DNA from: Daucus carota subsp. sativus
Lineage: Eukaryota; Streptophyta; Magnoliopsida; Apiales; Apiaceae
Length of the DNA stretch: 64,000 nucleotides
NCBI RefSeq assembly: GCF_001625215.2
Contig: NC_030385.2
Location: forward strand, 7,309,135-7,373,134
Direction of reading: 5' to 3'
The notes below the pieces were generated by a model. That model ran no database searches. It saw only the letters and a program-made list of their open reading frames with translations, and had not been told where the DNA came from. A program made the translations under genes and the position numbers. Of this stretch, positions 16,373-41,534 are shown in pieces. Within the stretch, counting starts at the first letter, position 1. Each line of letters starts with the position of its first letter.

Positions 16373-17164
16373 TTATTGGTTAAGAACATTGAGAATAGAG
16401 ACTCTAGTCTTTATCAAAGATCTATAAAGACATTCTAAATCCTCCTCACATTGTTGCATGTTCTTGTTGAGTGCCATCAGACACTTCTGTGCTCCTTGGA
16501 TTCTTGAGAAATCAGATTGCAAGTTAATTTTCTGCTTGTATAACGCTTCAATATCCATTTGCATTTCCTCAACTTTGCCTTCTTCGTGTACGCGCTTGGA
16601 TTGTTTTGATTTGAAAACAAATGACCACCGGTTTTGCTTTGAAGTTTCCATTGCTGGAAATACTGATGAGAAAAGGGACTCGAACATCATTATACTAACT
16701 TCTTCAACTTCTCTTAGCAGGCTCACAGTAGCAGATGTCTCATTGCATTTCTTATTTTGAGACTTCTTGAAAGTAGCAAGGGACTTGGAAACCAATTTGT
16801 TGACCTTTTTCATACAGATCAAGTAGCTTCCAATTTTGCTTGATACGTCAGCTTCTCTTCTTCGAAGAGATGACTCAAGATCTTGCACTGAAGCCCTCTT
16901 TTGTGAGAATGCTTCTTTAGTTAAGTTGCACAAATCCAGCAGCCTGATAGATGCACCAAGAGCTTCTTCAGAATCGCAATGCCTCACTGGCAATTGAAAA
17001 AAGTCATCCACACATTCATACAAGTCTTTGAGGCCACTTAGTTTATTGCATAGCGATGAAGTGGATGTGTCATCTGATGACCTTAGTCTACACAACTGCT
17101 CCTCCACATCTGCGGCTGAAGGATGAGGTCTGGACGGTAAGCTGATTGAACGAGAATGACTCAT
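16373..17164 (-). CDS. DUF241 (BPS1-like) protein, type A copy 1
   Basis: Single-exon gene, 263 residues, function unknown. N-terminal motif MSHSRSISLPSRPHP (residues 1-15), then EEQLCRLRSS, the DLYECVDDFFQLP segment, the basic coil SSLRRREADVSSKIGSYLIC near residue 105, VSLLREVEEVSIMMFESLFS in the middle, and the family C-terminus YRSLIKTRVSILNVLNQ. Charged, helical, with no signal peptide or membrane span; the conserved Ser/Arg N-terminus could be a phosphorylation or targeting site (inference). It differs from its sisters at PVRHCDSEE, where others read PMNHSSNSEE or PMRHSSNSEE, and is one residue shorter there. The ATG is the first in frame and sits about 110 bp below the conserved TATA box. 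It is the array copy nearest the RRM gene and lies tail to tail with it. Confidence 0.9.
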   Translation of the reverse strand: MSHSRSISLPSRPHPSAADVEEQLCRLRSSDDTSTSSLCNKLSGLKDLYECVDDFFQLPVRHCDSEEALGASIRLLDLCNLTKEAFSQKRASVQDLESSLRRREADVSSKIGSYLICMKKVNKLVSKSLATFKKSQNKKCNETSATVSLLREVEEVSIMMFESLFSSVFPAMETSKQNRWSFVFKSKQSKRVHEEGKVEEMQMDIEALYKQKINLQSDFSRIQGAQKCLMALNKNMQQCEEDLECLYRSLIKTRVSILNVLNQ

Positions 17165-17272
17165 ATTTTTATGAGGATTGTAGTAAAGTCTTTCAAGTTA
17201 TGTTGAAGAAGAAAGTGAGAAACTCAATGAGATGTTGCAGCTTTCAGATTGGTTTGATTTGCCTTGAGCACC

Positions 17273-17281
17273 TTTTATATA
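17273..17281 (-). promoter_or_regulatory. TATA box of type A copy 1
   Basis: TATATAAAA on the minus strand, about 110 bp upstream of the ATG, within the block shared by the type A copies (ATTATATAAAAGGTGCTCAA). Confidence 0.7.
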
Positions 17282-17829
17282 ATGTAGAGGAGACAAAAGG
17301 AATCATATGCTGGCCATAGAAGCTCATTGGAAGCCCGAATGCATTTGCATTTTTATATAATCGAGCACCACATGATTGAAGATATCAAGCTAATGTTTAT
17401 CTTTTTAAATGATCAAGCACGAGTGGATTTCTTAAGTCTTTCAGACATGGACAGCGCAAAAATGGCTTTTTATAACTCAATGAAATTGAAGAGATGCAAT
17501 CCAGAATGTGAAAATTTCAATGGTTGTCTGGTGGTTGCAGACAGAAGGAACCTTATCTGCTTGAATATAATTATCAAAGGCTGTGATCCGTATTTGGAGA
17601 TCATGCTTCATAACCAGAGGCATAGGTAGAACATAATTTCAATCCATGTCATTTAATTCATATTTTATAGGAGAAACCTAACTAATGTAGCCTGCAGATC
17701 GGAACATTTAGAATCTTTACACCGTATTTTCTTCATATTCATCCATGTGCAGAATCTCTGTTACAGATTCATTACATAGTATAAAATTTAAGGGATGCTA
17801 TTTGAGCGGAATAGTAGACATAAGTATAA

Positions 17830-18050
17830 AATTGGTGCATGTTCATGTCCAATGCATATTTTCTGCTTGTACACAACTTCAAATCTATTTGCATTTTATG
17901 AGCTTCATTGTTTCTGTCTTCACTGGCTCCATGTACAGGCGCTGGCTTAAAAACCATTGACCATTGGTTTGTTTTGATGTTTCCTTCCCAGGAAAGGCTG
18001 GTGAAAAAGGGACTCGAATACTGTCAGACAGACTTTTTCAACGTCTGTTT
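17830..18050 (-). pseudogene. Type C DUF241 remnant 1 (truncated)
   Basis: Corresponds to the C-terminal half of a DUF241 gene (pieces matching MNMHQF, the YKQK helix and the AHKMQID segment). The end of the gene is replaced by a short CATAAGTATAAAA-type junction identical in kind to that of remnant 2, and the N-terminal half is cut off near 18050, where unrelated sequence begins. Not translatable. Confidence 0.8.
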
Positions 18051-18449
18051 AGGGCTTTAGATTTGGGGAAGACCAAGAACAGTTCGTGCTGCTGCGGTTT
18101 AGGGTTCAAAAAGGAGTCATCTTGCTGCGATTGAGAATTTACTAATCAGAATTAAAGCTCTGTTTGTCTGTTCAGTTCGATTGAATAATGTTAGAATGAA
18201 GGTTTACCTTACTTTTATGACAACTCTATGTTAGTATGAAGGTTTACCTTGCTTTTATGACAACTCTAGAAACGTCTCCCTGGATTTTTCGTAGTCCAGG
18301 AGGTTCTCGAGCATTCAACCCACACACAAACGACCACGTTATGGTTCGATATGGGCCTAACGGACGACGAGTTCGACTTGATTGACATATAAATTATGCT
18401 TTTTGGTCAATTATGATGTTTGGAGCGAAAGGAATTAGATGGATATGTA
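18051..18449. other. Unassigned spacer between DUF241 remnant 1 and the transposon nest
   Basis: Contains a short direct repeat: GAATGAAGGTTTACCTTACTT near 18193 recurs near 18235 with its flanks (about 45 bp). No gene seen. Confidence 0.4.
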
Positions 18450-18482
18450 TACAGGTCCAGTTCCTCGGCATACGATTGCTGG

Positions 18483-19588
18483 TAGGGATGAGTAAAACCG
18501 AACCAAAAACCGAAACTGGAAAAACCGAAAAAAAACCGAACCATTAAAAACCGAATAAATAATATGGTTGCGGTTTGATTTTAAATTTTTTAAAACCATA
18601 TACAAACCGAACCGAACCAAATTATATTAATTATATATATTTATCATATATATATTATTATTATTAATAATAATTTTATCAAATTTAATAATTAAATTAC
18701 TCAGACTCTCAGAGTGTCCTTCAAAAGTTGTATTAGCTGCTGGACAGAGAGCTAAAATTTGAAACTTTTTCGGGTATGTTAATGCAGGACTTGTCTTGGT
18801 GTTTCTCTAAATTGTACTTTGGTTTTCTCCTTGCTCATCTTTACTTTTCTCTTAATATTGCATGTGTTCCCGGTAAATTTAATCTGCATAAAAACGGCAA
18901 CATTGAGGACATGCTAATGGTGGAGAGTAGGGGTGTGCATGGTGCGGTTTGGTGCGGTTCCGGACAATAACCGTTACCAAACCGATGAATGCGGTTCGGT
19001 TCGGTTAATCATCACTAACCTTAACCGCACCAATTAAAACAGCTTTTCGGTTGCGGTTAACCACTAGACGGTTGCGGTTTTTTTTCGGTTTTTCCACTAT
19101 TATTTGCTACTCTTGTGCATAATGATTTTTTAAAAACAATATAAAATTTTCATGAATATGTACAAAATGTTCGGTTACTATTTACTATTGTTTCTATACG
19201 AGGATATAGGAAACATTACATACTTTTATCTAAAAAACTTTAATACACAATAAAAACTAAAACATACATATTTTGACAAGAAATTAGATGATGTCAAGTC
19301 AATAAAATTACCTAAAATCAACTAATCATGAAATTCAAATAAAAAGTTTTCAAAAAGTACATAAATAATAAAATAGGTTTCATAATAAAATTTGATTAGC
19401 AGATTAACGGAAATATTTCTGGTTTGCGGCAAATCACAATAGCCCTAGTTTACGATCAAGAGCTCGTCCGAATATTTGGATGCCCGGTTATTTAAGTGAC
19501 TCAGCAAGTATGCAAGTATGGAAGAAGAACCTCCATATAAAATTAGATGTGAAGTTTAAAAATGACTAAGGTCCTTATTATTATTATT

Positions 19589-19625
<37 letters not shown>

Positions 19626-20264
19626 AATATATATATTTCGGTTCGGTTAATTTCGGTGCGGTTTTAGCATAAAACCGAAAATAAAACCGCACCACTAATT
19701 TCGGTTTTTCATCTCGGTTATTTTCGGTTTTATTTGCGGTTTGATTTTTTTCGGTGTGGTTTTTCGGGTTTTTTAGGGTTTTTTTGCGGTTTCGGTTTTC
19801 TCTGCTCGCCCCTAGTGGAGAGAGGGCTTCTGGAACTTACTTTACTTAAGGTTTATGTCTGCACATATGTTCTTACATATGCTAAACCAAACAATCATAC
19901 TTGCTAATATTTTCAAGTCTGCAGCTTCACTCTCCCCCGTTTTGTCAACTGTTAAAGCTTTATCAATCTGGGAAAGCTTATTCATTTACTTATTGGTTGC
20001 ACCTTACTTTCTTGTACTCAAATTCTAACATCTATTTATTATTAAAAAAATAACAAGAAAAATTTTAAATTACAAAAACAATACAAGAAAATTTTTAGTT
20101 TGGTTTAAAATCGAAACCAAACCATTTTCAAATCGAACTATGATTAAAAACAGAAAGCGCACCAACGGTATTTGGTTTGGTTTTTGATTTTAGAAACCGA
20201 ATAAATATGATTACGGTTTGGTTTTCGGTCGAAACCAAACCAAACCAAACCACGCTAATCCCTA
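18483..20264. mobile_element. hAT-type element inserted in the left arm of the inverted repeat
   Basis: Ends TAGGGATGAG and CTAATCCCTA, flanked by an exact 8-bp duplication ATTGCTGG (18475-18482, 20265-20272). Both ends carry AAACCGAACC / GGTTTGGTTT subterminal repeats in opposite orientation. It contains a second hAT element. Without that insertion it is about 890 bp and has no transposase gene. Confidence 0.8.
18928..19814. mobile_element. hAT-type element nested in another hAT element
   Basis: Ends TAGGGGTGTGCA and TGCTCGCCCCTA and an exact 8-bp duplication GTGGAGAG (18920-18927, 19815-19822). Subterminal GCGGTTCGG and TTTCGGT repeats are dense at both ends. 887 bp, AT-rich inside, with an AT microsatellite near 19590-19622 and no coding region. 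Confidence 0.9.
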
Positions 20265-20272
20265 ATTGCTGG

Positions 20273-20340
20273 GAAACCTTTATCCAACACACAGTTTGCT
20301 GGGAACCTTTATCCAACACACAGTCTTGCAGTCGTTGGAT
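20273..20340. repeat. Short tandem duplication, about 28 bp unit
   Basis: GCTGGGAAACCTTTATCCAA and the following CACACAGTTT are repeated once with small changes, just right of the hAT target duplication. Confidence 0.7.
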
Positions 20341-21750
20341 TACATTATCAACTAGTAAAGTTTAAAAATTTTGTTGTATGTCTAGCACTTTCGTTGTACG
20401 TCTGCTGGACGAGTAGTTTGTTTATTGATGTATGACGCTTAAAAAGCGCTGAAAGCACATACAAAGTTTTAAGGATGTCTTGAAACTTCTGTAACATTCA
20501 CTTATTAACATAAATAATATAATATATAATATATTTATTTTATAAATAATATATTTGTTATATAAATATTGAGTAGCATAAAATATAATATATTTATTTT
20601 ATAAAATGTAATATATATATTTTATATTATATAATATATTATATTACATATATTATATATAATCTATTTAAGATATCTATATTATATAATATATATAATA
20701 TATATAATATATTATATTTATATTTTATATTTTATAAATAAATAGAAAATAGAAAATAGGTAATCAACATAATTAAATATAAAATAATATATACACAAAT
20801 GATATTAAATAAGATTTAAAATTTTCAAAAGTCATATATTAACAATCAGATTTTTCTTGAGAAATATAAAATTTTAATTTTTTAAGAAAATATTTTCACT
20901 TTTAAAAATTTGTTGAAAATATTATATTTTATATTTTCAGTATCAATGTAGCAACACTTTTGGTTTTTGAGTTCGCCCTAACTACCCATATATTCATCAT
21001 TAATACCCTAAATATTTGGATCCAGAAAAATGACTCCCAAATGTCATTTAGTAACGTTATATCGTGTATCGTTTTGGTTAACCAAAACACGACAGCGTGT
21101 AGAGTCTAATTAGGTTAATCCTTAAAATAGCAAAACGCCAACACCACATGGTCTAGGCCTATAGGGTTTTCATACCAAAATTGAAAATGCTAGATTATCA
21201 GCGTCTCTCCGGTATTTGAGGCCATTTTTTCCAACTATGTTATTTTCGGCATTATTTCAAGAATAGGAGATTTAGGGCCATTTTTTCTTGTTTTTCCGGG
21301 GCTATGCATGTAGTATAGAACAATAATCTGGATATTTGCTGGTTTGTGCAGAGCAGTTTGATAAATCTAAGTCGGTGTCAAAAAAAATTATTAATATTTC
21401 TAATAAATTTTTAAAATTGAAAATTATTTTCATAAAAAAATTAAAATAATATATTTCTCAAGAAAAATCTAATTGTTAATATATGACTTTTGAAAATTTT
21501 AAATCTTGTTTAATATCATTGGTGTATATATTATTTTATATTTAATTATGCTGATTACCAATTTTATATTTTATATTTTATAAATATAAATATAATATAT
21601 TAAACATATTTTATATAGTATATACAATATATTATATGGTATAAATATCTTAAATATATTATATATATTATAAAATATAATATAAAATAAAAATATTATA
21701 TTTTATAACTTAAATATATTATATTTTATATTATTTATGTAATAAGTGAA

Positions 21751-22472: not shown

Positions 22473-22778
22473 AAGTGAATGTTACAAAAGTTCCAAGACA
22501 CTCATGAAACCCTCTCCGTGCTTCTACCGTTTCCGTGCTTCTACCGTTTTTTAAGCGCTAGATACCCATAAACAAACTCTCATCCAGGATCCCCGCTGCC
22601 CAGCAATCATACGCTGGGACCCGGAACCATGTATATATACGGTGATTTGTTCAAACCTTTTCACATGAACCCTAACCCAACCTTTTGTGTAGAAATATAT
22701 ATACATGGTTAAATTATATGTTAGAGTCGTCGTGGATACCTATACTCTATTTTGAAACTTTTCGGCGAGATGAGCATA

Positions 22779-23677: not shown

Positions 23678-24472
23678 CTATTGGTTAAGAACATTGAGAA
23701 TAGAGACTCTAGTCTTTATCAAAGATCTATAAAGACATTCTAAATCCTCCTCACATTGTTGCATGTTCTTGTCAAGTGCCATCAAACACTTCTGTGCTCC
23801 TTGGATTCTTGAGAAATCAGATTGCAAGTTGATTTTCTGCTTGTATATTGCTTCAATATCCATTTGCATTTCCTCAACTTTGCCTTCTACGTGTACGCGC
23901 TTGGATTGTTTTGACTTGAAAACCAATGACCACCGGTTTTGGTTTGATGTTTCCTTTGCTGGAAATACTGATGAGAAAAGGGACTCGAACATCGTTATAC
24001 TGACTTCTTCAACTTCTCTTAGCAGGCTCACAGTAGCAGATGTTTCATTGCATTTCTTATTTTGAGACTTCTTCAAAGTAGCAAGGGACTTGGAAACCAT
24101 TTTGTTGACCTTTTTCATACAGATCAAGTAGCTTCCAATTTTGCTTGATACATCAGCTTCTCTTCTTCGAAGAGATGACTCAAGATCTTGCACAGAAGCC
24201 CTCATTTGTGAGAATGCTTCTTTAGTTAAATTGCACAAATCCAGCAGCCTGATAGATGCACCAAGAGCTTCTTCAGAATTGCTGGAATGGTTCATTGGCA
24301 ATTGAAGGAAGTCATCCACACATTCATACAAGTTTTTGAGTCCACTTAGTTTATTGCTTAGCGATGAAGTGGATGTTTCATCTGATGACCTCAGTCTACA
24401 CAAGTGCTCCTCTACATCTGCGGCTGAAGGATGAGGTCTGGACGGTAAGCTGATTGAACGAGAATGACTCAT
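23678..24472 (-). CDS. DUF241 (BPS1-like) protein, type A copy 2
   Basis: Single exon, 264 residues, function unknown. Same order of motifs as copy 1: MSHSRSISLPSRPHP, EEHLCRLRSS, LYECVDDFLQLPMNHSSNSEE, SSLRRREADVSSKIGSYLIC, VSLLREVEEVSITMFESLFS, RSLIKTRVSILNVLNQ. Distinctive residues are SLSNKLSGLKNLYEC and HVEGKVEEMQMD in the variable linker around residue 200. Start is the ATG directly below the shared promoter block. The dead type C copy at 25150-25808 lies just upstream, and an inserted block lies downstream. Its near identity with copies 1 and 3 points to recent duplication or gene conversion. Confidence 0.9.
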   Translation of the reverse strand: MSHSRSISLPSRPHPSAADVEEHLCRLRSSDETSTSSLSNKLSGLKNLYECVDDFLQLPMNHSSNSEEALGASIRLLDLCNLTKEAFSQMRASVQDLESSLRRREADVSSKIGSYLICMKKVNKMVSKSLATLKKSQNKKCNETSATVSLLREVEEVSITMFESLFSSVFPAKETSNQNRWSLVFKSKQSKRVHVEGKVEEMQMDIEAIYKQKINLQSDFSRIQGAQKCLMALDKNMQQCEEDLECLYRSLIKTRVSILNVLNQ

Positions 24473-24596: not shown

Positions 24597-25149
24597 ATGA
24601 AGAGGAGACAAAAAGAATCATATGCTGGACACAGAAGCTCATTGAAAGCCAGAATGCATATGCATTTTTATATATTCGAGCACCACATGATTGAAGCTAT
24701 TAAGCAAATGTTTATCTTTTTAAATGATCAACCACGAGCGGATTGCACAAGTCTTTCAGACATGGACAGCACGAAAATGGCTTTTTATAACTCAATGAAA
24801 TTGAATAGATGCAATGGAAAATGTGCAAATTTCAATGGTTGTCTGGTGGTTGCAGACAGAAGGAACCTTATCTACTTGAATTTTAATTATCAAAGGCTGT
24901 GTGATCCGTATTTGGAGATCATGCTTCATAACCAGAGGCATAGGCACAACATAATTTCAATCCATGTCATTCAATTCATATTTTATAGGAGAAACCTAAC
25001 TAATGTAGCCTGCAGATTGGAACATTTAGAATCTTTACACCGTATTTTGTTCATATTAACATCCATGTGCAGAATCTCTGTTACATCTTCATTACATAGT
25101 GTAAAATTTAAGGGATGCTATTTGAGCGGAATAGTAGACGTAAGTATAA

Positions 25150-25808
25150 AATTGGTGCATGTTCATGTCCAATCTATTTGCATTTTATGAGCTCCATTGT
25201 TTCTGTCCTCACTGGCTTAAAAACCATTGATCATCGGTTTTGTTTTGATGTTTCCTTCGCAGGAAAGACTGATGAAAAAGGGACACGAATACTGTCAGAA
25301 AGACTTTTTCATCTTCTCTTAAGAGGTCTAGAATAACAGAAGTCTCATTGCTTTTCTTATTCTGAGATTTCTTAGAACTAACAAAGCACTTGGAAACCAT
25401 ATTGTTGACCTTTCTCTTACAGATCAAGCAGCTTCCAGTTTTGCTTGATACATCAGCTTCCTTCTTGGAAAAGATGAGTACTCGAGGTCTTGTACAGAAG
25501 CTCTAATTTGAGAAAATGCATCTTAGTTGTGTAGCACATATCTAAGAGCCTTACACATGTGCCAAGAACATCTTCACTATCGCGAAATGCATCTTTGGAA
25601 ATTCGAGTAAATCAAGTAACTCATACAAGTCATTCAGACTAGCTAGCTAGTTACCTTGTTGCATAGTGATGATGTGGATGTCGCGTCTGATGACCTTATT
25701 CTGCACAAAATGCACCTCTACATCTGCAACTGAAGAATAGGGTCTTGAAGGTAAATTGATTGAACGAGTATGACTTATACTTTTTGTTGTTTCATTAAAG
25801 GCTTCCAT
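25150..25808 (-). pseudogene. Type C DUF241 pseudogene 2
   Basis: Recognisable from an N-terminal ATG (25806-25808) with SHTRSINLPSRP, through KRKVNNMVSKCFVSSKKSQN, to MNMHQF-like sequence. The frame is broken by several small insertions and deletions, and the true C-terminus is missing, replaced by the same junction as in remnant 1. A further deletion removes the helix that precedes the C-terminal region. It sits upstream of type A copy 2. Confidence 0.85.
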
Positions 25809-25849
25809 CTTATTCAAAAGAGGGAATAGCTAAATGTGATGTTATGTTC

Positions 25850-26829: not shown

Positions 26830-27624
26830 CTATTGGTTAAGAACATTGAGAATAGAGACTCTAGTCTTTATCAAAGATCTATAAAGACATTCTAAATCCT
26901 CCTCACATTGTTGCATGTTCTTGTCCAGTGCCATCAGACACTTCTGTGCTCCTTGGATTCTTGAGAAGTCAGATTGCAAGTTGATTTTCTGCTTGTATAT
27001 TGCTTCAATATTCATTTGCATTTCCTGAACTTGCCCTTCTTCGTGTACACGCTTGGATTGTTTTGACTTAAAAACCAATGACCACCGGTTTTGGTTTGAT
27101 GTTTCCTTTGCTGGAAATACTGATGAGAAAAGGGACTCGAACATCGTTATACTGACTTCTTCAACTTCTCTTAGCAGGCTCACAGTAGCAGATGTCTCAT
27201 TGCATTTCTTGTTCTGAGACTTCTTGAAACTAGCCAGGCACTTAGAAACCATTTTGTTGACCTTTTTCATACAGATCAAGTAGCTTCCAATTTTGCTTGA
27301 TACATCAGCTTCTCTTCTTCGAAGAGATGACTCAAGATCTTGCACAGAAGCCCTCATTTGTGAGAATGCTTCTTTAGTTAAGTTGCACATATCCAGCAGC
27401 CTGATAGATGCACCAAGAGCTTCTTCAGAATTGCTGGAATGGTTCATTGGCAATTGAAGGAAGTCATCCACACATTCATACAAGTCTTTGAGTCCACTTA
27501 GTTTATTGCATAGCGATGAAGTGGATGTTTCATCTGATGACCTCAGTCTACACAACTGCTCCTCTACATCTGCGGCTGAAGGATGAGGTCTGGACGGTAA
27601 ACTGATTGAACGAGAATGAGTCAT
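26830..27624 (-). CDS. DUF241 (BPS1-like) protein, type A copy 3
   Basis: Single exon, 264 residues, function unknown. The start is MTHSRSISLPSRPHP; the frame continues 11 codons upstream but only to a TTG, so the ATG at 27622-27624 is chosen. Motif order as in the other type A copies. Distinctive: LLDMCNLTKEAFS, KMVSKCLASFKKSQN, and HEEGQVQEMQMNIE in the variable linker. Followed upstream by the type C pseudogene at 28415-29217. The 3' flank carries the conserved TGTACA-rich block. Confidence 0.9.
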   Translation of the reverse strand: MTHSRSISLPSRPHPSAADVEEQLCRLRSSDETSTSSLCNKLSGLKDLYECVDDFLQLPMNHSSNSEEALGASIRLLDMCNLTKEAFSQMRASVQDLESSLRRREADVSSKIGSYLICMKKVNKMVSKCLASFKKSQNKKCNETSATVSLLREVEEVSITMFESLFSSVFPAKETSNQNRWSLVFKSKQSKRVHEEGQVQEMQMNIEAIYKQKINLQSDFSRIQGAQKCLMALDKNMQQCEEDLECLYRSLIKTRVSILNVLNQ

Positions 27625-27750: not shown

Positions 27751-28414
27751 ATGAAGAGGAGACAGAAGGAATCATATTGGCATGACAGAAGCTCATTGGA
27801 AGCCAGAATGCATTTGCATTTTTATATAATCAAGCACCACATGATTGAAGCTATCAAGTTAATGTTTATTTTTTTTATATGATGAACCACGAGGGGCTTG
27901 CTTAAGTCTTTCAGACATGGACAGCACAAAAATGGCTTTTTATAACTCAATGAAATTGAATAGATTTGAAGAAATTGTGCAAATTTCAATGGTTGTCTGG
28001 TGGTTTCAGACAGAAGGAACATTATCTGCTTGAATTTGAATATAATTATCAAAGGCTGTGATCCGTATTTAGAGATCATGCTTCATAACCAGAGGCATAG
28101 GCAGAACATAATTTCAATCCATGTCAATTAATTCGTATTTTATATATTATTGTAGGAGAAACCTAACTAATGTAGCCTGCAGATTGGAACATTTAGAATC
28201 TTTACACCGGATTTTCTTCATATTAACATCCATGTGCAGAAACTCTGTTACAGATTCATTACACAGTATAATGTACTAAATGGTTATGCCAAATGTACAT
28301 TTCCACTTTGATTTCATTTTATCTATACATTTTGTCTGATCCAAGTAGAAAACTATAGACCCCTTCAAGATAAAATTTAAGGGACACTATTTGAGCAGAA
28401 TAGTAGATGATAAA

Positions 28415-29217
28415 CTATTGATTTGAAACGTTGAGAATAGAGACTCTAATCTTGACCAAAGATCTGAAAAGACAATCTAATTTCTCCTCAAACTGGTGCA
28501 TGTTCATGCCGAATGCAAATAAAGACTTTTGTGTTTGTTGCATTCTCTTAAAATCAGTTTGGATGATTATTTTCTGCTTGTACACAGCATTCAAATCTAT
28601 TTGCATTTTATGAGCTTCATTGTTTCTGTCTTCACCGGCTCCATGTACATGCGCTGGCTTAAAAGCCATTGACCATCGGTTTTGTTTTGATGTTTCCTTC
28701 GCAGGAAAGACTGATGAAAAAGGTACTCGAATACTGTCAGAGAGACTTTTTCAACTTCTCTTAGAATGACAGAAGTCTCATTGCTTTTCTTATTCTGAGA
28801 TTTCTTAGAACTAACAATGCACTTGAAAACTATTTTGTGACCTTTTTCTTACAGATCAAACAGCTTTCAATTTTGCTTGCAGCTTCTTTTCTTTGAAAAG
28901 ATGACTCGACGTCTTGTACAGAAGCTCTCAGTTGAGAAAATGCATCTTAGTTGTGTAGCACATATCCAAGAGCCTTACTGATGCACCAAGAACATCTTCA
29001 CTATCGCAAAAATGCATCTTTGGAAATCATCAAGTAACTCATACAAGTCATTCAGGCTGGTTACCTTGTTGCATAGTGATGAAGTGGATGTCGCGTCTGA
29101 TGACCTTATTCTGTACAAATGCACCTCTACATCTGCAACTGAAGAATGGGGTCTTCAGGGTAAACTGATTGAACGCGTATGACTTGTACTTTTTGTTGTT
29201 GCAGTTAAGGATTCCAT
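28415..29217 (-). pseudogene. Type C DUF241 pseudogene 3 (most complete)
   Basis: The full length of a DUF241 gene is traceable, from an ATG at 29215-29217 to a C-terminus EKLDCLFRSLVKIRVSILN. The last 84 codons are still open (HKMQIDLNAVYKQKIIIQTD, MNMHQFEEKLDC), but the upstream part has several frame breaks. The sequence is nearer to type A than type B yet distinct from both (RMQQTQKSLFAF for RIQGAQKCLMAL), so it defines a third type. A promoter-like GGCACCTTTTATAAAA block remains at about 29288. It could at most make a short C-terminal peptide. Confidence 0.85.
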
Positions 29218-29284
29218 GTTTTTCAAAAGAGGGAATCGCTAAATGTGATGTTATGTTCAAGGGTTGGCTTTATATTACCTTTGC

Positions 29285-29770
29285 GTTTGGCACCTTTTAT
29301 AAAACAAGATGAGACAAAAGGAACATATTGACGTGACTGTAGTGCATTTCATGTGCTTGAGCACCAAACTTTGCTGGAACTCCGGATATGTTTCACATAT
29401 GTTTCTACTTCAATCTAGCAAGATCTATTATATATAATCATACACAAGTGGATTGCTAAAACTCATGCATCTACAGCGGAATCAATTACAGCATTGTCTC
29501 CGGTCTATATAATTATCCACAAGGGGATTATATATTTTGAAATTTGTTCATATCTCGGTGATAATATACTGTCTGGGGGACAGATGGAACCTTGGCAGCC
29601 TGTCAAAATTATTCAAAAACAGTCACAGCGATTCTCAAACGAAGGTCCACCTCATCTGCAATTCAGCATTAAGTTGACATCAATAATATATTCAGTTGAT
29701 GATTCAGCTGATGCTAGGTGTCTAGAAGACACTCCCATTTGGAAGGTGAGAATGACAAACTGGTAACATT
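29285..29770. repeat. Segment shared with about 35395-35835
   Basis: Shared words include CATTTCATGTGCTTGAGC, TGTTTCACATATGTTTCTAC, CTGTCTGGGGGACAGATGGA and GATTCAGCTGATGCTAGGTG. The segment is present above pseudogenes 3 and 4 but missing above pseudogene 2, where the flanks join directly, so it was lost there (about 0.5 kb). Confidence 0.8.
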
Positions 29771-30811: not shown

Positions 30812-31597
30812 TTATTGGTTAATAACATTGAGAATAGAGACTCTAGTCTTTATCAGAGATCTATAAAGACATTCTAAATCCTCCTCACATTGTTGCATGT
30901 TCTTGTCGAGTGCCATCAGACACTTCTGTGCTCCTTGGATTATTGAGAAATCAGATTGCAAGTTGATTTTCTGCTTGTATATTGCTTCAAAATCCATTTG
31001 CCTTTCACTGACATCGTGTACAAGCTTGGATTGTTTTGACTTAAAAACCAATGACCACCGGTTTTGCTTTGATGTTTCCTTTGCTGGAAATATTGATGAG
31101 AAAAGGGACTCGAACATCATTATACTGACTTCTTCAACTTCTCTTAGCAGGCTCACAGTAGCAGATGTTTCATTGCATTTCTTATTTTGAGACTTCTTGA
31201 AAGTAGCAAGGGACTTGGAAACCAATTTGTTGACCTTTTTCATACAAATCAAGTAGCTTCCAATTTTGCTTGATACATCAGCTTCTCTTCTTCTAAGAGA
31301 TGACTCAAGATCTTGCACAGAAGCCCTCATTTGTGAGAATGCTTCTTTAGTTAAGTTGTACAAATCCAGCAGCCTGATAGATGCAGCAAGGGCTTCTTCA
31401 GAATTGCTGGAATGCCTCATTGGCAATTGAAGGAAATCATCCACACATTCATACAAGTCTTTTAGTCCACTTAGTTTATTGCAGAGCGATGAAGTAGATG
31501 TTTCATCTGATGACCTCAGTCTACACAACTGCTCCTCTACATCTGCAGCTGAAGGATGAGGTCTGGACGGTAAACTGATTGAACGAGAATGAGTCAT
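30812..31597 (-). CDS. DUF241 (BPS1-like) protein, type A copy 4
   Basis: Single exon, 261 residues, function unknown. Start MTHSRSISLPSRPHP at 31595-31597; the upstream extension begins only with TTG. Shortest of the six: the variable linker reads HDVSERQMDFEAIYKQ where others have HEEGKVEEMQMDIEAIYKQ, a clean in-frame shortening. Other differences are EEALAASIRLLDLYNLTKEA (Ala for Gly, Tyr for Cys) and the C-terminus ILNVINQ. Unlike copies 2, 3 and 5 it has no type C pseudogene upstream. Instead its upstream flank (31740-31930) resembles that of the type B gene at 38791, which hints at a different origin for this unit. Confidence 0.9.
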   Translation of the reverse strand: MTHSRSISLPSRPHPSAADVEEQLCRLRSSDETSTSSLCNKLSGLKDLYECVDDFLQLPMRHSSNSEEALAASIRLLDLYNLTKEAFSQMRASVQDLESSLRRREADVSSKIGSYLICMKKVNKLVSKSLATFKKSQNKKCNETSATVSLLREVEEVSIMMFESLFSSIFPAKETSKQNRWSLVFKSKQSKLVHDVSERQMDFEAIYKQKINLQSDFSIIQGAQKCLMALDKNMQQCEEDLECLYRSLIKTRVSILNVINQ

Positions 31598-31723: not shown

Positions 31724-31929
31724 ATGAAGAGGAGACAAAAGGAATCATATTGGCACTATTGTATAGGCCTTCCATGAGCTGGACAAAGAAAGTCATTATG
31801 TAACTTAATTTCATTTATGTGCTTAACACCAAAACTTGCTATAATTCGGATCTGCAGATCTTTATAGTTGGAGATTGTCTAGGGACAAGAAGAGCATTAA
31901 CAGCTTGTAAATTAATATAGGATAGCACT

Positions 31930-32988: not shown

Positions 32989-33780
32989 CTATTGGTTAAG
33001 AACATTGAGAATAGTGACTCTAGTCTTTATCAAAGATCTATGAAGACATTCTAAATCCTCCTCACATTGTTGCATGTTCTTGTCAAGTGCCTTCAGTGCT
33101 CCTTGGATTCTTGAGAAATCAGATTGCATGTTGATTTTCTGCTTGTATATTGCTTCAATATCTATTTGCATTTCCTCAACTTTGCCTTCACTGACTTCGT
33201 GTACACGCTTGGATTGTTTTGACTTAAAAACCAATGACCACCGGTTTTGCTTTGATGTTTCCTTTGCTGGAGAGACTGATGACAGAAGGGACTCAAACAT
33301 CGTTATACTAACTTCTTCAACTTCTCTTAGCAGGCTCATAGTAGCAGATGTCTCATTGCATTTCTTATTCTGGGACTTCTTGAAATTAGCAAGGCACTTG
33401 GAAACCATTTTGTTGACCCTTTTCATACAGATCAAGTAGCTTCCAATTTTGCTTGATACATCAGCTTCTCTTCTTCGAAGAGATGACTCAAGATCTTGCA
33501 CAGAAGCCCTCATTTGGGAGAATGCTTCTTTAGTTAAGTTGCACAAATCCAGCAGCCTGACAGATGCACCAAGAGCTTCTTCAGAATTGCTGGAATGCCT
33601 CATTGGCAATTGAAGGAAGTCATCCACACATTCATACAAGTCTTTGAGTCCACTTAGTTTATTGCATAGCGTTGAAGTGGATGTTTCATCTGATGACCTT
33701 AGTCGACACAAGTGCTCCTGCACATCTTCGGCTGAAGGATGAGGTCTGGACGGTAAGCTGATTGAACGAGAATGGCTCAT
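32989..33780 (-). CDS. DUF241 (BPS1-like) protein, type A copy 5
   Basis: Single exon, 263 residues, function unknown. N-terminus MSHSRSISLPSRPHP, then SAEDVQEHLCRL (others SAADVEE). The linker carries HEVSEGKVEEMQIDIEAIYK, three residues longer than copies 1-3, while later RIQGALKALDKNMQQ lacks three residues found in the sisters (RIQGAQKCLMALDKNMQQ). Both changes keep frame. C-terminus HRSLIKTRVTILNVLNQ. Its downstream flank matches copy 6, not copies 1-4, so copies 5 and 6 come from one unit. The type C pseudogene at 34742 lies upstream. Confidence 0.9.
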   Translation of the reverse strand: MSHSRSISLPSRPHPSAEDVQEHLCRLRSSDETSTSTLCNKLSGLKDLYECVDDFLQLPMRHSSNSEEALGASVRLLDLCNLTKEAFSQMRASVQDLESSLRRREADVSSKIGSYLICMKRVNKMVSKCLANFKKSQNKKCNETSATMSLLREVEEVSITMFESLLSSVSPAKETSKQNRWSLVFKSKQSKRVHEVSEGKVEEMQIDIEAIYKQKINMQSDFSRIQGALKALDKNMQQCEEDLECLHRSLIKTRVTILNVLNQ

Positions 33781-33907: not shown

Positions 33908-34741
33908 ATGAAGAGGAGACAGAAGGAATCATATTGGCATGACTGTATTGGCCTTTCATGTGTTGCACACAGAAGCTCATTGGAATTCAGGATTTATTTC
34001 TATTTTTATATAAATGAGCACCACATGATTGAACTTATCATGCTTATATCTTTCTTTTTAAATGATCAACCACGAGCGGATTGCTTAAGTCTTCAGACAT
34101 GGACAGCACGGCAATGGCTTTTTATAACTCAATGAAATTGAATAGATGCAATGGAAAATGTGCAAATTTCAGTGGTAGTATGGTGGTTGCAGACAGAAGG
34201 AACCTTATCAGCCTGAATTTAATTATCAGGACTGTGATCCATATTTAGAGATCATGCGCATCAGCAATTAGTCCAACTAAAATAACAACATCCACGAGTA
34301 GCATGTTTCTTAACTAGAGGCATAGGCAGGACAGAATTTCATCCCATGTCATTTAATATATTTCTAGGGGGAGGAACCTAACTAATGGAGCCTGCAGATT
34401 GGAACATTTAGAATCTTTACACCGTATTTTCTTCATAATTGAACCAGTTATCTAGGCTTTGTAGCTAATATGACCTATTGAAGCAATTAATTAACATCCA
34501 TGTGCAGAAACTCTATTACAGATTCATGACATAGTATGTACTAAATGGTTATTGTTTTTCTTTTCTCTCTTTTTCTATTTTTCTTTAAGGCAAGACAAAA
34601 TAATCATACATCAATAATTTGCTAAAGAATTGTAATGAATGTGGATATGATAACAGACAAATCTTTCCATAATATATTTTCACTTTGATCCAAGCACAAA
34701 AAAAAAATACCCCTTTAAAATAAAATTTAAGAAATGCTATT

Positions 34742-35388
34742 TCAGCGGAATAGTAGAAGATAAACTAATTGGTTTGAAAATTTGAGACTAGAGACTCTAC
34801 TCCTGACCAAAGATCTAAAAAGACAATCTGATTTCTCCTCAAGCTGGTGCATGTTCATGTCCAATGCAAATAAAGACTTATGTGCTTGTTGCATCCTGGT
34901 GAAATCAGTTTGGATGTTAATTTTCTGCTTGTACGCAACTTCCAAATCTATTTGCATTTTATGAGCTTCATTGCATCTGTGTTCACTGGCTCCATGTGCA
35001 TGCGCTGTCTTGACTACCATTGACCATCGGTTTTGTTTTCATGTTTCCTTCGCAGCAGAAAAGACTGAATGTCAGACTGACTTGTTCAACTTCTCTTAGG
35101 AGGTTCTAAATAACAGAAGTCTCATTGCTTTTCTCAGTCTGAGATTTCTTAGAACTAACAAAAACTTTCAATACAGATCAAGTAGCTTTCAATTTTTCTT
35201 GGTACATCAGCTTCTCTTCTCTTGCACAGAAGCTCTCATTTGAAAAAAAATGCAATTCTGTAGTTGTGTTGTACATATTTAAGAACCTTACAGATGCGCC
35301 AAGAACATCTTCAGCATCGCGGAATGCATCTTTGGAAATTGAAGTGACTCATACAAGCCAAACTGATGCTCCTCTACATCTTACCTTT
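34742..35388 (-). pseudogene. Type C DUF241 pseudogene 4
   Basis: The C-terminal part is open (HKMQIDLEVAYKQKINIQTD, MNMHQLEEKSDCLFRSL) and ends with an altered tail after LKFSNQ. The middle has frame breaks, and the N-terminal third is largely deleted: the remnant of the coding start runs straight into the promoter-like GGCACCTTTTATAAA block. It lies upstream of type A copy 5. Confidence 0.85.
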
Positions 35389-36349
35389 GCCTTTGGCACC
35401 TTTTATAAACAAAAGGAACCTATTGAAGTGCATTTCATGTGCTTGAGCGCCAACTTTGCTGAAACTCCAGACATGTTTCACATATGTTTCTACTTGAATC
35501 TAGCAAGATCTATTAAATAATCAAACACGAGTGAATTGCTAAAACTCTTGCATCTACAGCAGTATCAATTACAGCATGGTCTGCGGTCTATATTATCATC
35601 CACGAGGGGATTATATATTTAAAAATTGTTCATATCTCAATCATAATATACTGTCTGGGGGACAGATGGAACCTTGGCAGGCTGTCAAAAATTATTTAAA
35701 AACAGTCACAGGGATTCACAAATGAAAGTCCCGTTTATCAGCAATTCAACACTAAGTTCACATCAATAATATATTCAGATGATGATTCAGCTGATGCTAG
35801 GTGTCTAGGAGGCACTCCCATTTGGAAGGTGGGATTGGTAACATGCATGCTTCATGAGTAGAGGAACCTCGAGCCCGATTTGCAGGCAGGTCATCTAACT
35901 CAAAGAGCTGGCAGTCGAATAACTAAACTACATAAAATTTTGAATTAGGATTATACCGTTAAAAATTATTAAAAATCAAATAAAAAGTGATGCGGAAAGA
36001 TGAAGTGACTGTTTAATAGCTTAGATATTGTTAAATTGCATGTGTGTCATCCAACTCTGAAAACTTGCTATTAAGTCATTAAACTATCATCTTTTTAATC
36101 GAATTATATGTTTTGATTATGTGATAAAACTATCAATTTATAGTAAAAAAAAGTAATAATTTGTATGAAGATTTATATCAATGTGCAATCCTATTTAATT
36201 TAAACGTGTACCATGCGCCCCAAAAAAGACTTCATGATGTGTTCTGTATCAGATATTGCTTAAAAGGTCAGCACTAGTAAATCTGCTACATTCTTATAAT
36301 TATTATCATTTTTTTTGTTAATTGCAGACCTTGTATATTCAACATTTTC

Positions 36350-36700
36350 TGAACTTCCAGGAATCTCAAATCCTTGTTTGATTTCTTGTATATAGCTTCC
36401 AAAGTCATATACATTGACTGAAGTACTTGCTTGTTATCTTATCCATGTCTAATTCTGTTGACTTGAAATTGGTGAACGTCGTGATGTTTTTGCTGCAGGA
36501 CATTCAGAAAATTAGAAGAATATAACTATATTAAGATAATGTCTTCATGCTTTGCTTCTTTTTATAGAAGGCGATGCAGAGAACTAACTGATTGCAATGC
36601 ACAAGCTATTTAATTTTAAGACCTCTTGAGCTCCCAAGATATCATTTGCTTTGCTCGATTTCTTGTTTAGAGCTTCAAAAGCGATATCCATATGTTGACA
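36350..36700 (-). pseudogene. Small type B-like DUF241 relics
   Basis: The segment at about 36615-36695 (AAGACCTCTTGAGCTCCC, then CTCGATTTCTTGTTTAGAGC) matches the type B gene at about 38905-38985, and a weaker relic at about 36370-36420 (TTGATTTCTTGTATATAGCT) matches the same region again. Only the stretch before the C-terminal region survives. Confidence 0.65.
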
Positions 36701-37010
36701 GATAAGCTGAACAACATCTTATAAAAAGGCGATAAACAGTAATTATCATATAGGTAACCAAAAAAATGAAAATGTTAGGAGAATAGCGGAAGAATTTTCC
36801 TCCTTGTCTTTCTAATTTGTTCGCGATGGAGAAATGAACAAGAATAACAAAAGCAAGGATATAAAATGAGCCTGTATATGGTTTTGGAATTTTTCTCAGC
36901 ATATATTATCACTTCAACTGTAATACCTATATACATGATGTACTGTATAGAATCCTTGTAAAAAAATGTAAAGGATGCTATTGTAGCCTAAATATTCAGT
37001 TCACTAGAAA

Positions 37011-37811
37011 CTATTGGTTAAGCACATTGAGAATAGAGACTCTAGTCTTTATCAAAGATCTGTAAAGACATTCTAGATCCTCCTCACATTGTTGCATGTT
37101 CTTGTCAAGTGCCATCAAACACTTTTGTGCTCCTTGGATTCTTGAGAAATCAGACTCCATGTTGATTTTCTGCTTGTATATTGCTTCAATATCCATTTGC
37201 ATTTCCTCAACTTTGCCTTCACTGACTTCGTGTACACGCTTGGATTGTTTTGACTTGAAAACCAATGACCACCGGTTTTGCTTTGATGTTTCCTTTGCTG
37301 GAAATACTGATGAGAAAAGGGACTCGAACATCGTTATACTGACTTCTTCGACCTCTCTTAGCAGGCTCACAGTAGCAGAAGTCTCATGGCATTTTTTATT
37401 TTGAGACTTCTTGAAACTAGCAAGGCACTTGGAAACCATTTTGTTGACCTTTTTCATACAGATCAAGTAGCTTCCAATTTTGCTTGATACATCAGCTTCT
37501 CTTCTTCGAAGAGATGACTCAAGATCTTGCACAGAAGCTCTCATTTGGGAGAATGCTTCTTTAGTTAAGTTGCACAAATCCAGCAGCCTGATAGATGCAC
37601 CAAGAGCTTCTTCAGAATCGCTGGAATGCCTCATTGGCAATTGAAGATAGTCATCCACACATTCATACAAGTATTTTAGTCCACTTAGTTTATTGCATAG
37701 CGTTGAAGTGGATGTTTCATCTGATGACCTCAGTCTACACAACTGCTCCTCTACATCTGCGGCTGAAGGATGAGGTCTGGACGGTAAACTGATTGAACGA
37801 GAATGAGTCAT
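37011..37811 (-). CDS. DUF241 (BPS1-like) protein, type A copy 6
   Basis: Single exon, 266 residues, the longest type A copy, function unknown. Start MTHSRSISLPSRPHP at an ATG directly below the shared promoter block. Linker HEVSEGKVEEMQMD as in copy 5 but without copy 5's three-residue loss (RIQGAQKCLMALDKNMQQ is intact). Distinctive: LKYLYECVDDYLQLPMRHSS and NKKCHETSATVSL. The next gene upstream is the type B copy at 38791, in the place where type C copies stand in other units. Confidence 0.9.
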   Translation of the reverse strand: MTHSRSISLPSRPHPSAADVEEQLCRLRSSDETSTSTLCNKLSGLKYLYECVDDYLQLPMRHSSDSEEALGASIRLLDLCNLTKEAFSQMRASVQDLESSLRRREADVSSKIGSYLICMKKVNKMVSKCLASFKKSQNKKCHETSATVSLLREVEEVSITMFESLFSSVFPAKETSKQNRWSLVFKSKQSKRVHEVSEGKVEEMQMDIEAIYKQKINMESDFSRIQGAQKCLMALDKNMQQCEEDLECLYRSLIKTRVSILNVLNQ

Positions 37812-37932
37812 ATTTTTTATGAGGATTGTAGGAAAGGCTAGCTTTCAAGTTTTTTTGAAGAAAGAAAGAGAGAAACTCAATGAGATGTTATAGCTTTCAG
37901 ATTGGTTTGATCTAACCTTTGCCTTGAGCACC

Positions 37933-37941
37933 TTTTATATA
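37933..37941 (-). promoter_or_regulatory. TATA box of type A copy 6
   Basis: TATATAAAA on the minus strand, about 122 bp above the ATG. Confidence 0.7.
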
Positions 37942-38790
37942 ATGAAGAGGAGACAAAAGGAATCATATTGGCATTACTGTATTGGCCTTCCATGAGCTGG
38001 ACACAGAGAGTACATTAAAATTCAGGATGTCAACAAGATTGAAGTGATCTAGACTACAGACAGCTCAATCAGTTCATCTTCTTAATATAATCATCCACGA
38101 GTGCATTGCTAAAGTCTTTCAGACACGGACAGCACTAGTATGCATTATTTATCTCAGGAAAATTGAAAAGATCATGCAATTTGAAACTTGCATATTTCAA
38201 TGATAGTATGGTGGTTGCAGACATAAGGAATCTTGGCAGCCTGAACTTAGTTATCAAGGGCTGTGATCCGTATTTAAAGATCACGTTCATCGGAAATTAT
38301 CTAGTTTACATCAAGTTTCACATATAAAATAACAAAATAACAACTCCCACAAGTACCATGCTCCATAACCAGAGACAAGGCAGGACAGGATTTCATGCCA
38401 TAACATCTTGATCATATCTTTTATATTTTGTAGGGCAGATCGGAGCATTAAGAATCTTTACACCATTTTAGGTCCTATTTAAGTAGTTGATTAACATCCA
38501 TGTGCAAACAGTCTGATACAGATTCATTGCATATATGATTTGCATATGGTTATGCCAAATGTCTGTACCCATAATTACATATATAATATCTTTTATGCTT
38601 TGCTTCCGTTTTCAGAAGGCTTCTGTATAGAGAACCATATAAGATGACTTGAAAATTAATATAGAATTGTTGTCTGTAATCTTTTAACTTTGATTTGAAT
38701 GTAAACATATACAGTTTCTGTACAATCATCAACAAAAACTCATCCCTCACAAAAAATCGGGGATGTAGCAATAGTCTATCCAAAAAAGGA

Positions 38791-39633
38791 CTAGTGGTTG
38801 AGAACATTGAGTATGGACACTCGTGTCTTGATCAATGATCGGACTAGTAAGTCTAATTTTTCTTCACATTCTTGCATGTTCATGTCCATTGCCATCAGGC
38901 ATTTTAAGACCTCTTGAGTTCCCAAGATATCATTTGCTTTGCTTGATTTCTTGTTCAGAGCTTCTAAAATCATATCCATCTTTTGAATTTGGTTGATATT
39001 TTCTTCTATGTCCCCTTCACAATGTACACGTTTGGATTGTGTTGACTTGAAAACCAAAGACCATCTGTTTGATGTTACCTTTGCAGGACAGATGGAGGAA
39101 AATATGGACTCGAATACTCTGATGCTGACTTCTTCAACTTCCCTCAGAAGGCCAACAATAGCTGGAGTCTCAGTGCTTTTGTTAATTTTCGACTTCTTAG
39201 AACTGGTAAAGCACTTGGAGATCATTTTCTTCACTTTCTTCTTACAGATCAAATAGCTTCCAGTTTTGCTTGATATATCAGATTCTCTTCTTCTTATAGA
39301 TGACTCAAATTGTTGAACGGAGGATCTCATTAGTGAGAGAGAATCTTTTGAGGTGCTGCACAAATCCAATAACCTAATAGATCCGCAAAGAATATCCTCT
39401 GCACAGCTCAAGTAATCTTGCTTTGCAGCTGGCAATTGAAGCAAATCTTCTACACACTCGTACAAGTCTATAAGCGTGGATAATTTGTTGCATTTAGTTG
39501 TTGATGAAGAGGTTGTCTCTTCTAGGGTCCTTAATCTGCACAGGTGCTCCTCAACACTAACAGTAAAAGGATGAGATCTGGATGGGAAGCTAATGGAACG
39601 AGAATGAACACTAACTTTAGTTGTTGAAGCCAT
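38791..39633 (-). CDS. DUF241 (BPS1-like) protein, type B copy 1
   Basis: Single exon, 280 residues, function unknown. Start MASTTKVSVHSRSISFPSRS; the frame extends nine codons upstream only to a TTG. Differs from type A by a longer N-terminus, a Ser/Thr-rich insert (LEETTSSSTTKCNKLSTL), KQDYLSCAEDILCGSIRLLD, KKSKINKSTETPAIVGLLRE, and a different linker (HCEGDIEENINQIQKMDMIL). C-terminus EEKLDLLVRSLIKTRVSILN-VLNH. Closest relatives in the window are the two copies at 60.5 and 62.5 kb, about 20 kb away, so type B predates the split of the two arrays. A TATATATA box lies at 39713-39720, about 80 bp upstream. Confidence 0.9.
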   Translation of the reverse strand: MASTTKVSVHSRSISFPSRSHPFTVSVEEHLCRLRTLEETTSSSTTKCNKLSTLIDLYECVEDLLQLPAAKQDYLSCAEDILCGSIRLLDLCSTSKDSLSLMRSSVQQFESSIRRRESDISSKTGSYLICKKKVKKMISKCFTSSKKSKINKSTETPAIVGLLREVEEVSIRVFESIFSSICPAKVTSNRWSLVFKSTQSKRVHCEGDIEENINQIQKMDMILEALNKKSSKANDILGTQEVLKCLMAMDMNMQECEEKLDLLVRSLIKTRVSILNVLNH

Positions 39634-39719
39634 TTTCGTTGGAGGAGGAATAGATGCCAATGAAATGCTAAACTCAGGTTTGATTTGGTAGACCTCTCAT
39701 GTGGATACCTAATATATAT

Positions 39720-39990
39720 AGGAGAAGGGAGACAGAAGGAATATTAATGTTGTAACTTTGTTTCATTCATGTGTTTGACACCGGAATTTGCTAAAATTCA
39801 GGATTTGCGGATCTTAATAATAGTAGATTGTCTAAGGACAAGAAGAACCTTGGCTGCATGTAAATTAATATCAGATACAAGAGGCCAGACTGGTGTGTCT
39901 TTCTGCTAAGTTTCTGTAAAGGAAAAACAGACAAGATAGTAAATTATTGCAGCATGTCCTTTGATCTGTTATACACTTGGTCACAATTTC
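39720..39990. repeat. Upstream flank shared with 31740-31950
   Basis: Both contain TTTCATTYATGTGYTTRACACC, TTGCTAWAATTC and AGATTGTCTARGGACAAGAAG in the same order. This ties type A copy 4 to a type B-like upstream region. Confidence 0.65.
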
Positions 39991-40329
39991 AAATTAAAAA
40001 TTCCAACACTATGTCAAGACATTTTTCATTCATTAATATTTTCTCTATGCCTTCTAGAGGTATCTGCATTTAATCACTGATATTGTTTTTTTTTTTTGTT
40101 TTTTTTCCTCTGGGGGATGATCAAACAAGAAAGAAAGAACCTTTAGATATTTCATGATTATTGCCAGAAGAATCTAATGAGTCTGGATATTATACTGAAC
40201 TTCTTCTCATCATATACATTCCCTTTTTCATTCTGATACATCTATCCATCTACTCTTAGTCGTGTACAGAATCATCGATTATGTTGTCAACAAAGGAAAG
40301 AAGTTGTCTGAGCTTGATAATTATAATTA

Positions 40330-41534
40330 AGAAACTATTGGTTAAAGAAATAGATAATAGAAACTATTGGTTAAAGAAATAGATAATAGAGACTCTAGTG
40401 TGATTTCGCACATTGTTGCATATTCATGTCTAGTGCCATTAAACACTTTGTTGCTGCATGAATCCTCAAGATATTAGATTGCATGTTTATTTTGCTTCAG
40501 TATTGATTTGCATATTCTGAACTTCACTGCAGGGCCGGCTCGTAATGAAGGCGAGTTAGGCAATCGCCTAAAGCCCCGTGTTGAGAAGGCCCCAAAATTT
40601 TTATTGGTATGTATTTATGTAGGTATATATGTACAAAAATAAATAAACTAGCTTCATGATTTAAAAGAATCAAAAAAAAATATTCGAATTATCTTACAAT
40701 AGGCCCCAAAATGAAATTAGTACGTATACATTGAGGTATATTTATATATGTAAAAAGAAATTGGTTTCATGGTATTAAAAGAATTTTTTTAAAAAAACTA
40801 GAATTAATATCTAAATCTGGTAAAAAAATTGAAAAATACTGTGTGATAATTTTTTTTAAAAGAATGATAATTAAAATATTAATATTGATAGTTTTAGTCA
40901 TTTTTTTTTGCTAACTTAATAAATACTTGATTTGAATCCTAACTAATAATAAATATGTAAATAATTTTTTTTATTGGAATGTAACTTGGTTCTTGTGAAT
41001 ATAAATTTTAGTTGTCAAAAATAAAAAAAAATGTTAGAGATTCTATTATAATTTTTTCAGTCTCTCTTCTGTTTAATTATTTTTTAAATTTTAATTTTAA
41101 TAACACAAATACTTTTATTATAATATTAAATAATATAAAACTATCAATGTATATAGGTTATTTATGTTATGCACAAGTCACGTTACACCGATGATGTCCA
41201 GTTTTTGCAAAAAAAAAATAAAATTACTTCTGAGTTTTATATTATAATATTTAAATATTAAAAAAATATTTATATTAGTAATATAATATTTAAATTTTTG
41301 ATTAGGCCTCATTTTGAGGTTTCCGCCTAAGGCCACAAAATTTCTTGAGCGGGCCCTGCTTCACTGCTCCTTTCTTGATTGACACTGTACACACTTTTGC
41401 ATTTAGATGACTTGAAAACCAGAGACCATCTCTTTTGGTTTAATGTTTCCTAGCAGGAAGGACCTATGAAAAACGGATTGGAATAGCAGTATAATGACTT
41501 CCTCAACTTCTACTATGAGGCTTAACAATAACTA
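40330..41534 (-). pseudogene. DUF241 pseudogene 5, split by a hAT element
   Basis: The C-terminal half is traceable at 40330-40529 (ACTATTGGTTAAAGAAATAG to the GCTTCAGTATTGATTTGCAT segment) and continues at 41367-41530 after the inserted element. A 29-bp stretch near the 3' end is duplicated in tandem. The N-terminal half is missing, and a Stowaway element sits at the break. Several frame breaks; no product. Confidence 0.8.
40530..41358. mobile_element. hAT-type element inside DUF241 pseudogene 5
   Basis: Terminal inverted repeats CAGGGCCGGCTC and GAGCGGGCCCTG, with an exact 8-bp duplication CTTCACTG on both sides (40522-40529, 41359-41366). 829 bp, AT-rich, no transposase. Subterminal AGGCCCCAAA and GGCCTCATTTTGAGG words resemble those of known plant hAT elements with CAGGGCCGG ends. 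Confidence 0.9.

Follow-up and report, generated by a model that had tools for sequence, protein, structure and literature searches.

An old, still active tandem array of PF03087 genes in carrot with a DR5-like promoter element and a candidate 14-3-3 motif

Introduction

The proteins BYPASS1, ROH1 and BYPASS1-LIKE (PF05633, DUF793) are distant relatives of the plant family PF03087, formerly DUF241 and now named 'BPS1' in Pfam. The N-terminal part of BYPASS1-LIKE binds 14-3-3 lambda, and protection of CBF3 has been reported for it (PMC6607965); the same work cites ROH1 as a binding partner of EXO70A1 (PMC6607965). Here we describe a tandem array of PF03087 genes in a 64,000-nucleotide stretch of the genome of the carrot, Daucus carota subsp. 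sativus (contig NC_030385.2, below C5, positions 7,309,135 to 7,373,134; hereafter the window). The relationship between the two families is seen via a protein encoded elsewhere in the carrot genome, which matches both profiles: a likely BYPASS1-type gene on the minus strand of contig C2 (58813342-58814400, L022:3342-4400) scores 66 bits with PF05633 and 28 bits with PF03087.

Closer relatives are found in Arabidopsis, where the genes At2g17070/At2g17080 and At4g35660-At4g35720 belong to the same Pfam family as the window genes. At4g35720 is given as a DUF241 gene, and the locus numbering in that paper suggests, by the numbers alone, that the Arabidopsis genes are clustered (PMC3762728). Expression of At2g17070 in lateral root cap cells has been described (PMC4623083). 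In horizontal cucumber roots, two DUF241 genes were among 18 genes with higher levels on the lower side, together with seven Aux/IAA genes and one GH3 gene (PMC5764274).

Results

The window contains ten intact single-exon open reading frames (ORFs), every one of them on the minus strand, encoding proteins of 230-285 amino acids, as against 349 for Arabidopsis BPS1 (PMC5793164). All ten proteins match the PF03087 profile with E-values from 4e-51 to 2.1e-63 and scores of 174-215 bits (cut-off 23.5), and the matches cover most of the 238-position model; the E-values exclude chance as the cause of the match. None of the ten proteins matches the PF05633 profile at E up to 1e-3. The ten intact DUF241 genes reported by the first-pass annotation, which was made from the sequence alone, are thereby confirmed; seven of them lie within 16373-41534. 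These seven are A1 (16373..17164, 263 amino acids), A2 (23678..24472, 264), A3 (26830..27624, 264) and A5 (32989..33780, 263), each identified by its ORF, the profile and the protein tree, together with A4 (30812..31597, 261), A6 (37011..37811, 266) and B1 (38791..39633, 280). Outside this region are D (6324..7016, 230), B2 (60451..61308, 285) and B3 (62484..63341, 285). The three intact types proposed earlier (a divergent type, here D, and types A and B) and the dead type C were recovered as separate groups.

A PF03087 search of the whole genome (441 Mb, 11 contigs) gave at least 33 matches, and the regions read contain 29 intact family ORFs: 14 on C5, eight on C4, five on C8 and two on C3. 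The C5 array runs past the end of the window and comprises one D, six A and seven B genes, with four of the B copies to the right of the window. Six 2.03-kb units repeated head to tail carry B2-B7; numbered as in the window they span 59876-72023, and the last measures 1,983 bp as cut. The start of this minus-strand repeat occupies 59876..64000, with B2 and B3 in the units 59876-61908 and 61909-63942. The whole units of B2-B6 differ from one another by 0.5-1.8%. The B7 unit is 5.5-5.8% away from these, owing to a different kind of promoter sequence beyond ~215 bp. B1 is separated from B2-B7 by a synonymous divergence (dS) of ~0.5.

A sister array on contig C4 contains eight intact genes in the same B-A-D order as on C5, with an adjoining gene for an FtsH protease (C5 about 7.383-7.387 Mb, L011; C4 about 41.919-41.922 Mb, L012). 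A protein tree built from the 29 family members plus two distant relatives groups genes of the two arrays by type, joining D to C4_8, B to C4_3, and A to C4_4 and C4_6. The C4_1, C4_2 and C4_5/C4_7 types have no intact C5 partner in this tree. Paired D genes are separated by a dS of 0.644, paired B genes by 0.54-0.56 and paired A genes by 0.51-0.62; the flanking FtsH gene gives 0.606 over 411 codons. Similarity extends to both sides of the arrays, with FtsH on one side and short conserved stretches beyond D on the other (window 1.5-2.9 kb, C4 41.952-41.953 Mb). Since the FtsH, B, A and D pairs all fall within dS 0.51-0.64 and the flanks match on both sides, the array is older than the block duplication that produced its C5 and C4 copies. 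It has grown on C5 since; the dS of the C5 A copies is 0.08-0.18. The orientation of FtsH relative to the array is reversed in one of the two contigs, which implies a local inversion. Between C4_6 and C4_7 we noted an ORF on the minus strand (C4:41942511-41943758, L014:2511-3758) with a zinc-knuckle-like stretch near residue 50, which we take to resemble a retroelement gag.

The intact copies are under purifying selection. Since duplication, A1-A6 have accumulated 50.3 synonymous and 55.7 nonsynonymous changes, corresponding to a ratio of nonsynonymous to synonymous rates (dN/dS, omega) of 0.30 (p 2e-9), and B2-B7 have accumulated eight of each (omega 0.28, p 0.012). All four indels within the coding sequences of the A copies are in frame; of the 16 indels in the near flanks, 4 are. 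Comparison of A with C4_4 and C4_6 gives omega values of 0.23-0.33, close to those within the array, and there is therefore no visible change of selection regime by amplification: purifying selection on the A and B copies is about as strong as before it. Among the three larger dead C copies, whose divergence is comparable, the pairwise omega is 0.86, 1.01 and 0.66, in no case significantly less than 1. Comparing each of them with C4_5 yields 0.38-0.56, significantly below 1, which is the expectation for copies that were functional part of the time.

A dN/dS near 1, which had been put forward as the mark of a decaying array, is thus found among the dead C copies and not among the intact ones. 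A neutral array in which most copies are turning into pseudogenes like those of type C would account for the seven remnants among ten intact genes, and for the death of all three larger C copies on C5. It is contradicted by the omega values of the intact A and B copies, by their clear difference from the dead copies, and by the four in-frame indels, and we consider it very improbable; decay of the array as a whole is rejected on the omega of the intact copies and the in-frame indels in coding sequence. The young B repeat, the low dS of the A copies and the omega of the dead C copies instead bear out the ongoing birth and death suggested earlier.

The same annotation had raised selection for diversity, in which copies are kept for the differences between their proteins, as in recognition or arms-race families. 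Some features point in this direction: codons 44-86 and 173-215 of A have a higher omega (0.57 and 0.37) than the rest, two of the four coding indels lie in or near codons 173-215, and the A copies contain mosaic sites (pairwise homoplasy index, PHI, p 0.0115; 188 of 300 site pairs incompatible). However, windows of 42-43 codons in A nowhere exceed an omega of 0.57, and so none is above 1. Within A, nonsynonymous and synonymous changes stand in a ratio like that between A3 and C4_4 (76/64), and no pair of the six newest B genes is separated by more than five nonsynonymous changes. Diversifying selection finds no support in these data and has, in our view, only a slight chance of being correct.

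The promoters of the intact A and B copies contain one strongly conserved stretch, GATTCCTTTTGTCTCC. In an alignment of 13 promoters (A1-A6, B1, B2 and B7 from C5; C4_3, C4_4, C4_5 and C4_7) it starts 21-23 bp before the TATA box in every row, and 22-23 bp before it in the intact A and B copies on C5. B3-B6, which were left out of the alignment, have the same element and TATA box. Between A-type and B-type promoters the identity is 0.91 in the element, 0.74 in the TATA box, 0.48 in the leader and 0.45 upstream; the coding dS between the two types is 1.07 in one measured pair and 1.33 in the other. The stretch resembles the DR5 auxin element, given as CCTTTTGTCTC, and its TGTCTC core also occurs in an element of SAUR promoters (PMC5751337). 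TGTCTC is kept in all 13 intact A and B promoters on C5, with the exact CCTTTTGTCTC in nine (A1, A4, A6 and B2-B7) and one mismatch in four; for the nine A and B genes of the window the numbers are five and four. All 14 CCTTYTGTCTC sites in the 240,000 bp scanned, which were picked around family loci, lie at promoters of PF03087 genes, 13 of them intact and one dead.

In the window, where all elements are on the minus strand, the exact form is found at A4 (31731..31745), A6 (37949..37963), B2 (61404..61418) and B3 (63437..63451), and is contained in the element of A1 (17289..17303), which starts 22 bp before its TATA box. A2 has CTTTTTGTCTC, with one mismatch (24604..24618), and A3 (27758..27772), A5 (33915..33929) and B1 (39728..39742) have CCTTCTGTCTC. 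A second element, CCTT[CA]TGTCTG, occurs further upstream in A1-A3, A5 and A6: in A1 it reads CCTTCTGTCTG (17537..17551), and similar distal elements lie at 24852-24866 (A2), 34189-34203 (A5) and 38217-38231 (A6). The distance from the TATA box to the ATG in the A and B copies is 86-130 bp. For this reason an intron in the 5' untranslated region, as reported for most BPS genes (PMC5793164), is unlikely in these copies. The intact A and B copies on C5 thus keep a compact promoter module, in which a putative auxin response element (AuxRE) of DR5-like form is followed at nearly fixed spacing by the TATA box.

Upstream of this module the promoters appear to have been exchanged. The first ~200 bp of the A4 promoter are common with A5 and A6, and the sequence then becomes B1-like (72% identity over about 235 bp). 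The distance between A4 and A6 rises from 0.035 in the first 150 bp to 0.77 at 150-450. In B7, identity to the other B units drops from 98-100% to ~70% about 215 bp upstream of the ATG. Gene conversion was considered for the coding sequences of the A copies in view of the PHI signal, but a run-length test was not significant once corrected for 15 tests (best 0.32); exchange is therefore argued for promoters only, from the A4 and B7 junctions. These junctions would fit a regulatory subfunctionalisation in which copies with the same proteins swapped promoters and were kept for expression in different places. We regard this as improbable: the core element and TATA box are common to the copies, and corrected conversion-run tests among the A copies show nothing significant.

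A second conserved feature lies in the proteins. The motif R-S-x-S-[LF]-P is present near the N-terminus of 26 of the 29 family proteins, compared with one match to RSxSxP in 5,355 residues of other ORFs. In an alignment of 21 rows, from which the three D-lineage proteins and B3-B7 were dropped, pairwise identity falls to 25% and 11 of 201 gapless columns are invariant; the motif's R, S, S and P account for four of them. The mode I consensus for 14-3-3 binding is RSXpSXP (PMC8093981), and the motif predicts 14-3-3 binding by the window proteins. A structure model of the A6 protein is all-helical at moderate confidence, with residues 1-11 at a predicted local distance difference test score (pLDDT) below 50. 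The prediction for the family protein is thus a bundle of helices whose disordered N-terminus bears RSxSxP.

The earlier count of at least five dead copies holds: tblastn detects seven remnants within the window, all on the minus strand. Three are the larger type C copies, at 25201..25829 (with the reading broken over three frames), 28418..29235 (the most complete) and 34769..35357 (supported by tblastn and the tree). The most complete copy still has its upstream DR5-like element (29310..29324, minus strand) and a TATA box. In the tree, dead type C branches near A and near C4_5/C4_7; placing it as sister to C4_5/C4_7 or to A gives a p of 0.42 both ways in the approximately unbiased (AU) test. 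Of the C4 genes, C4_5 has the best blastn score with each of the three. The others are a weak remnant upstream of A1 (17829..18050, best E 5.4e-6) with a long branch in the tree, a B-type fragment of 28 residues with 82% identity to B1 residues 217-244 (36614..36697), a C-terminal part (40338..40517) and a remnant at 41339..41579, the last two found by tblastn.

Between B1 and B2 the opposite strand carries two other genes: a MYB gene (PF00249) of at least two ORF pieces at 46948-48294, the second piece probably belonging to it, and an F-box/LRR gene (PF00646, PF23622) at 52320-53189. A 75-bp unit is present in two tandem, 100% identical copies at 57706-57855.

Discussion

We describe an old, still active birth-and-death array of PF03087 genes, and we give about an even chance to the reading that its expansion raised the dosage of a helical protein which responds to auxin and perhaps binds 14-3-3. 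The array already stood in the order B-A-D beside FtsH before the block duplication gave rise to its C5 and C4 copies. The C5 copy then grew to 14 intact genes, six of them B genes in the recent repeat, while the type C copies died. Auxin, via binding of auxin response factors, may induce the A and B copies together, and amplification would yield more of a single auxin-responsive product and not a greater variety of it. The cucumber root genes and the lateral root cap expression of At2g17070 are in keeping with a link to auxin. The N-terminal motif, when phosphorylated, may recruit 14-3-3 proteins, and the family proteins would then themselves be growth regulators dependent on 14-3-3, as reported of BYPASS1-LIKE for CBF stability. 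Of the two motives suggested for such an expansion, dosage fits the array and diversity does not. A bolder version, which we put forward only tentatively, sees a natural multi-copy DR5-like unit: a TATA-locked auxin element and a 14-3-3-binding helical protein would have been amplified together, and copy number would set the gain of an undescribed auxin output.

Several observations weigh against the dosage reading. D and the five C8 genes are without the DR5 form: the D promoter is limited to TGTCTG sites near -373 and -308, and C8_2, C8_3 and C8_4 have TGTC[TC]C at -97 to -124. At the position of the element, the related site of C4_1 and C4_2 reads ATTCCTTATGTTTC, with TGTTTC and no TGTC, while C4_3 has TGCCTC and C4_5 has CGTCTC; with TGTCTC not intact in these four genes, the ancestral element may be something else. 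The contrast between element and upstream sequence is weak in the comparison of the C5 B genes with C4_3 (0.88 and 0.72). For TGTCTC by itself the window shows no clear enrichment (35 occurrences against 25.3 expected, a number reached by 5 of 100 shuffles), and the 18 long elements against 0.23 expected by shuffling count homologous copies as independent. Auxin induction of the cucumber DUF241 genes is not shown in the available portion of PMC5764274. As to the protein, RSxSxP is absent from the D lineage (three of the 29 proteins), BYPASS1-LIKE belongs to PF05633, a family related to but different from PF03087, and BYPASS1-LIKE mutated at its one predicted 14-3-3 serine is reported still to bind (PMC6607965). 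Since binding there survives mutation of the predicted site, 14-3-3 binding by the window proteins stays a prediction.

Part of these observations would be expected if this were an ordinary tandem array with purifying selection on each copy, whose element serves light/PIF signalling, stress or a CT-rich core promoter and resembles DR5 partly by coincidence. The C4_1, C4_2, C4_3 and C4_5 genes hold the position without an intact TGTCTC; At4g35720 is among the direct or likely direct targets of PIF (PMC9614472, PMC3561105); and CT-rich Y-patches are found around the transcription start site of 49% of Arabidopsis genes (PMC4331925). On the other hand, all 13 intact A and B promoters on C5 have TGTCTC, nine with the full 11-bp DR5 sequence, and five A genes have a second element upstream. 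Moreover, the combination of AuxRE and Y-patch goes with auxin responsiveness (PMC4331925). We consider such a role of the element in another pathway possible, though rather doubtful.

The array itself is ordinary, since plant gene families often occur as tandem arrays. Its value lies in the conservation over many copies, which reveals two testable features in a little-studied family: the DR5-like element by the TATA box and the N-terminal 14-3-3 consensus. The description of the family as one of no known function therefore holds in part: little functional work exists, but the Pfam name is now 'BPS1', and the promoter and the N-terminus give specific leads. The resemblance of the promoter element to an auxin-response switch in particular gives PF03087 a testable role. 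If both features act as predicted, DUF241 proteins would be an auxin-induced, 14-3-3-dependent output; and if the dosage reading is true, the array would be a clear case of selection keeping copy number and not protein diversity.

Should the multi-copy DR5-like reading be true, DUF241/BPS1 would stand beside SAUR as a further clustered auxin-output family. SAUR genes form clusters, and these, like the window array, consist of small plant genes in tandem. The SAUR genes are auxin-inducible and the window genes are predicted to be so, although the two protein families are unrelated. Within PF03087 itself, unlike Arabidopsis, which is known here by its locus numbers, the carrot has 14 intact copies on C5, six of them in a regular 2.03-kb repeat, and a sister array.

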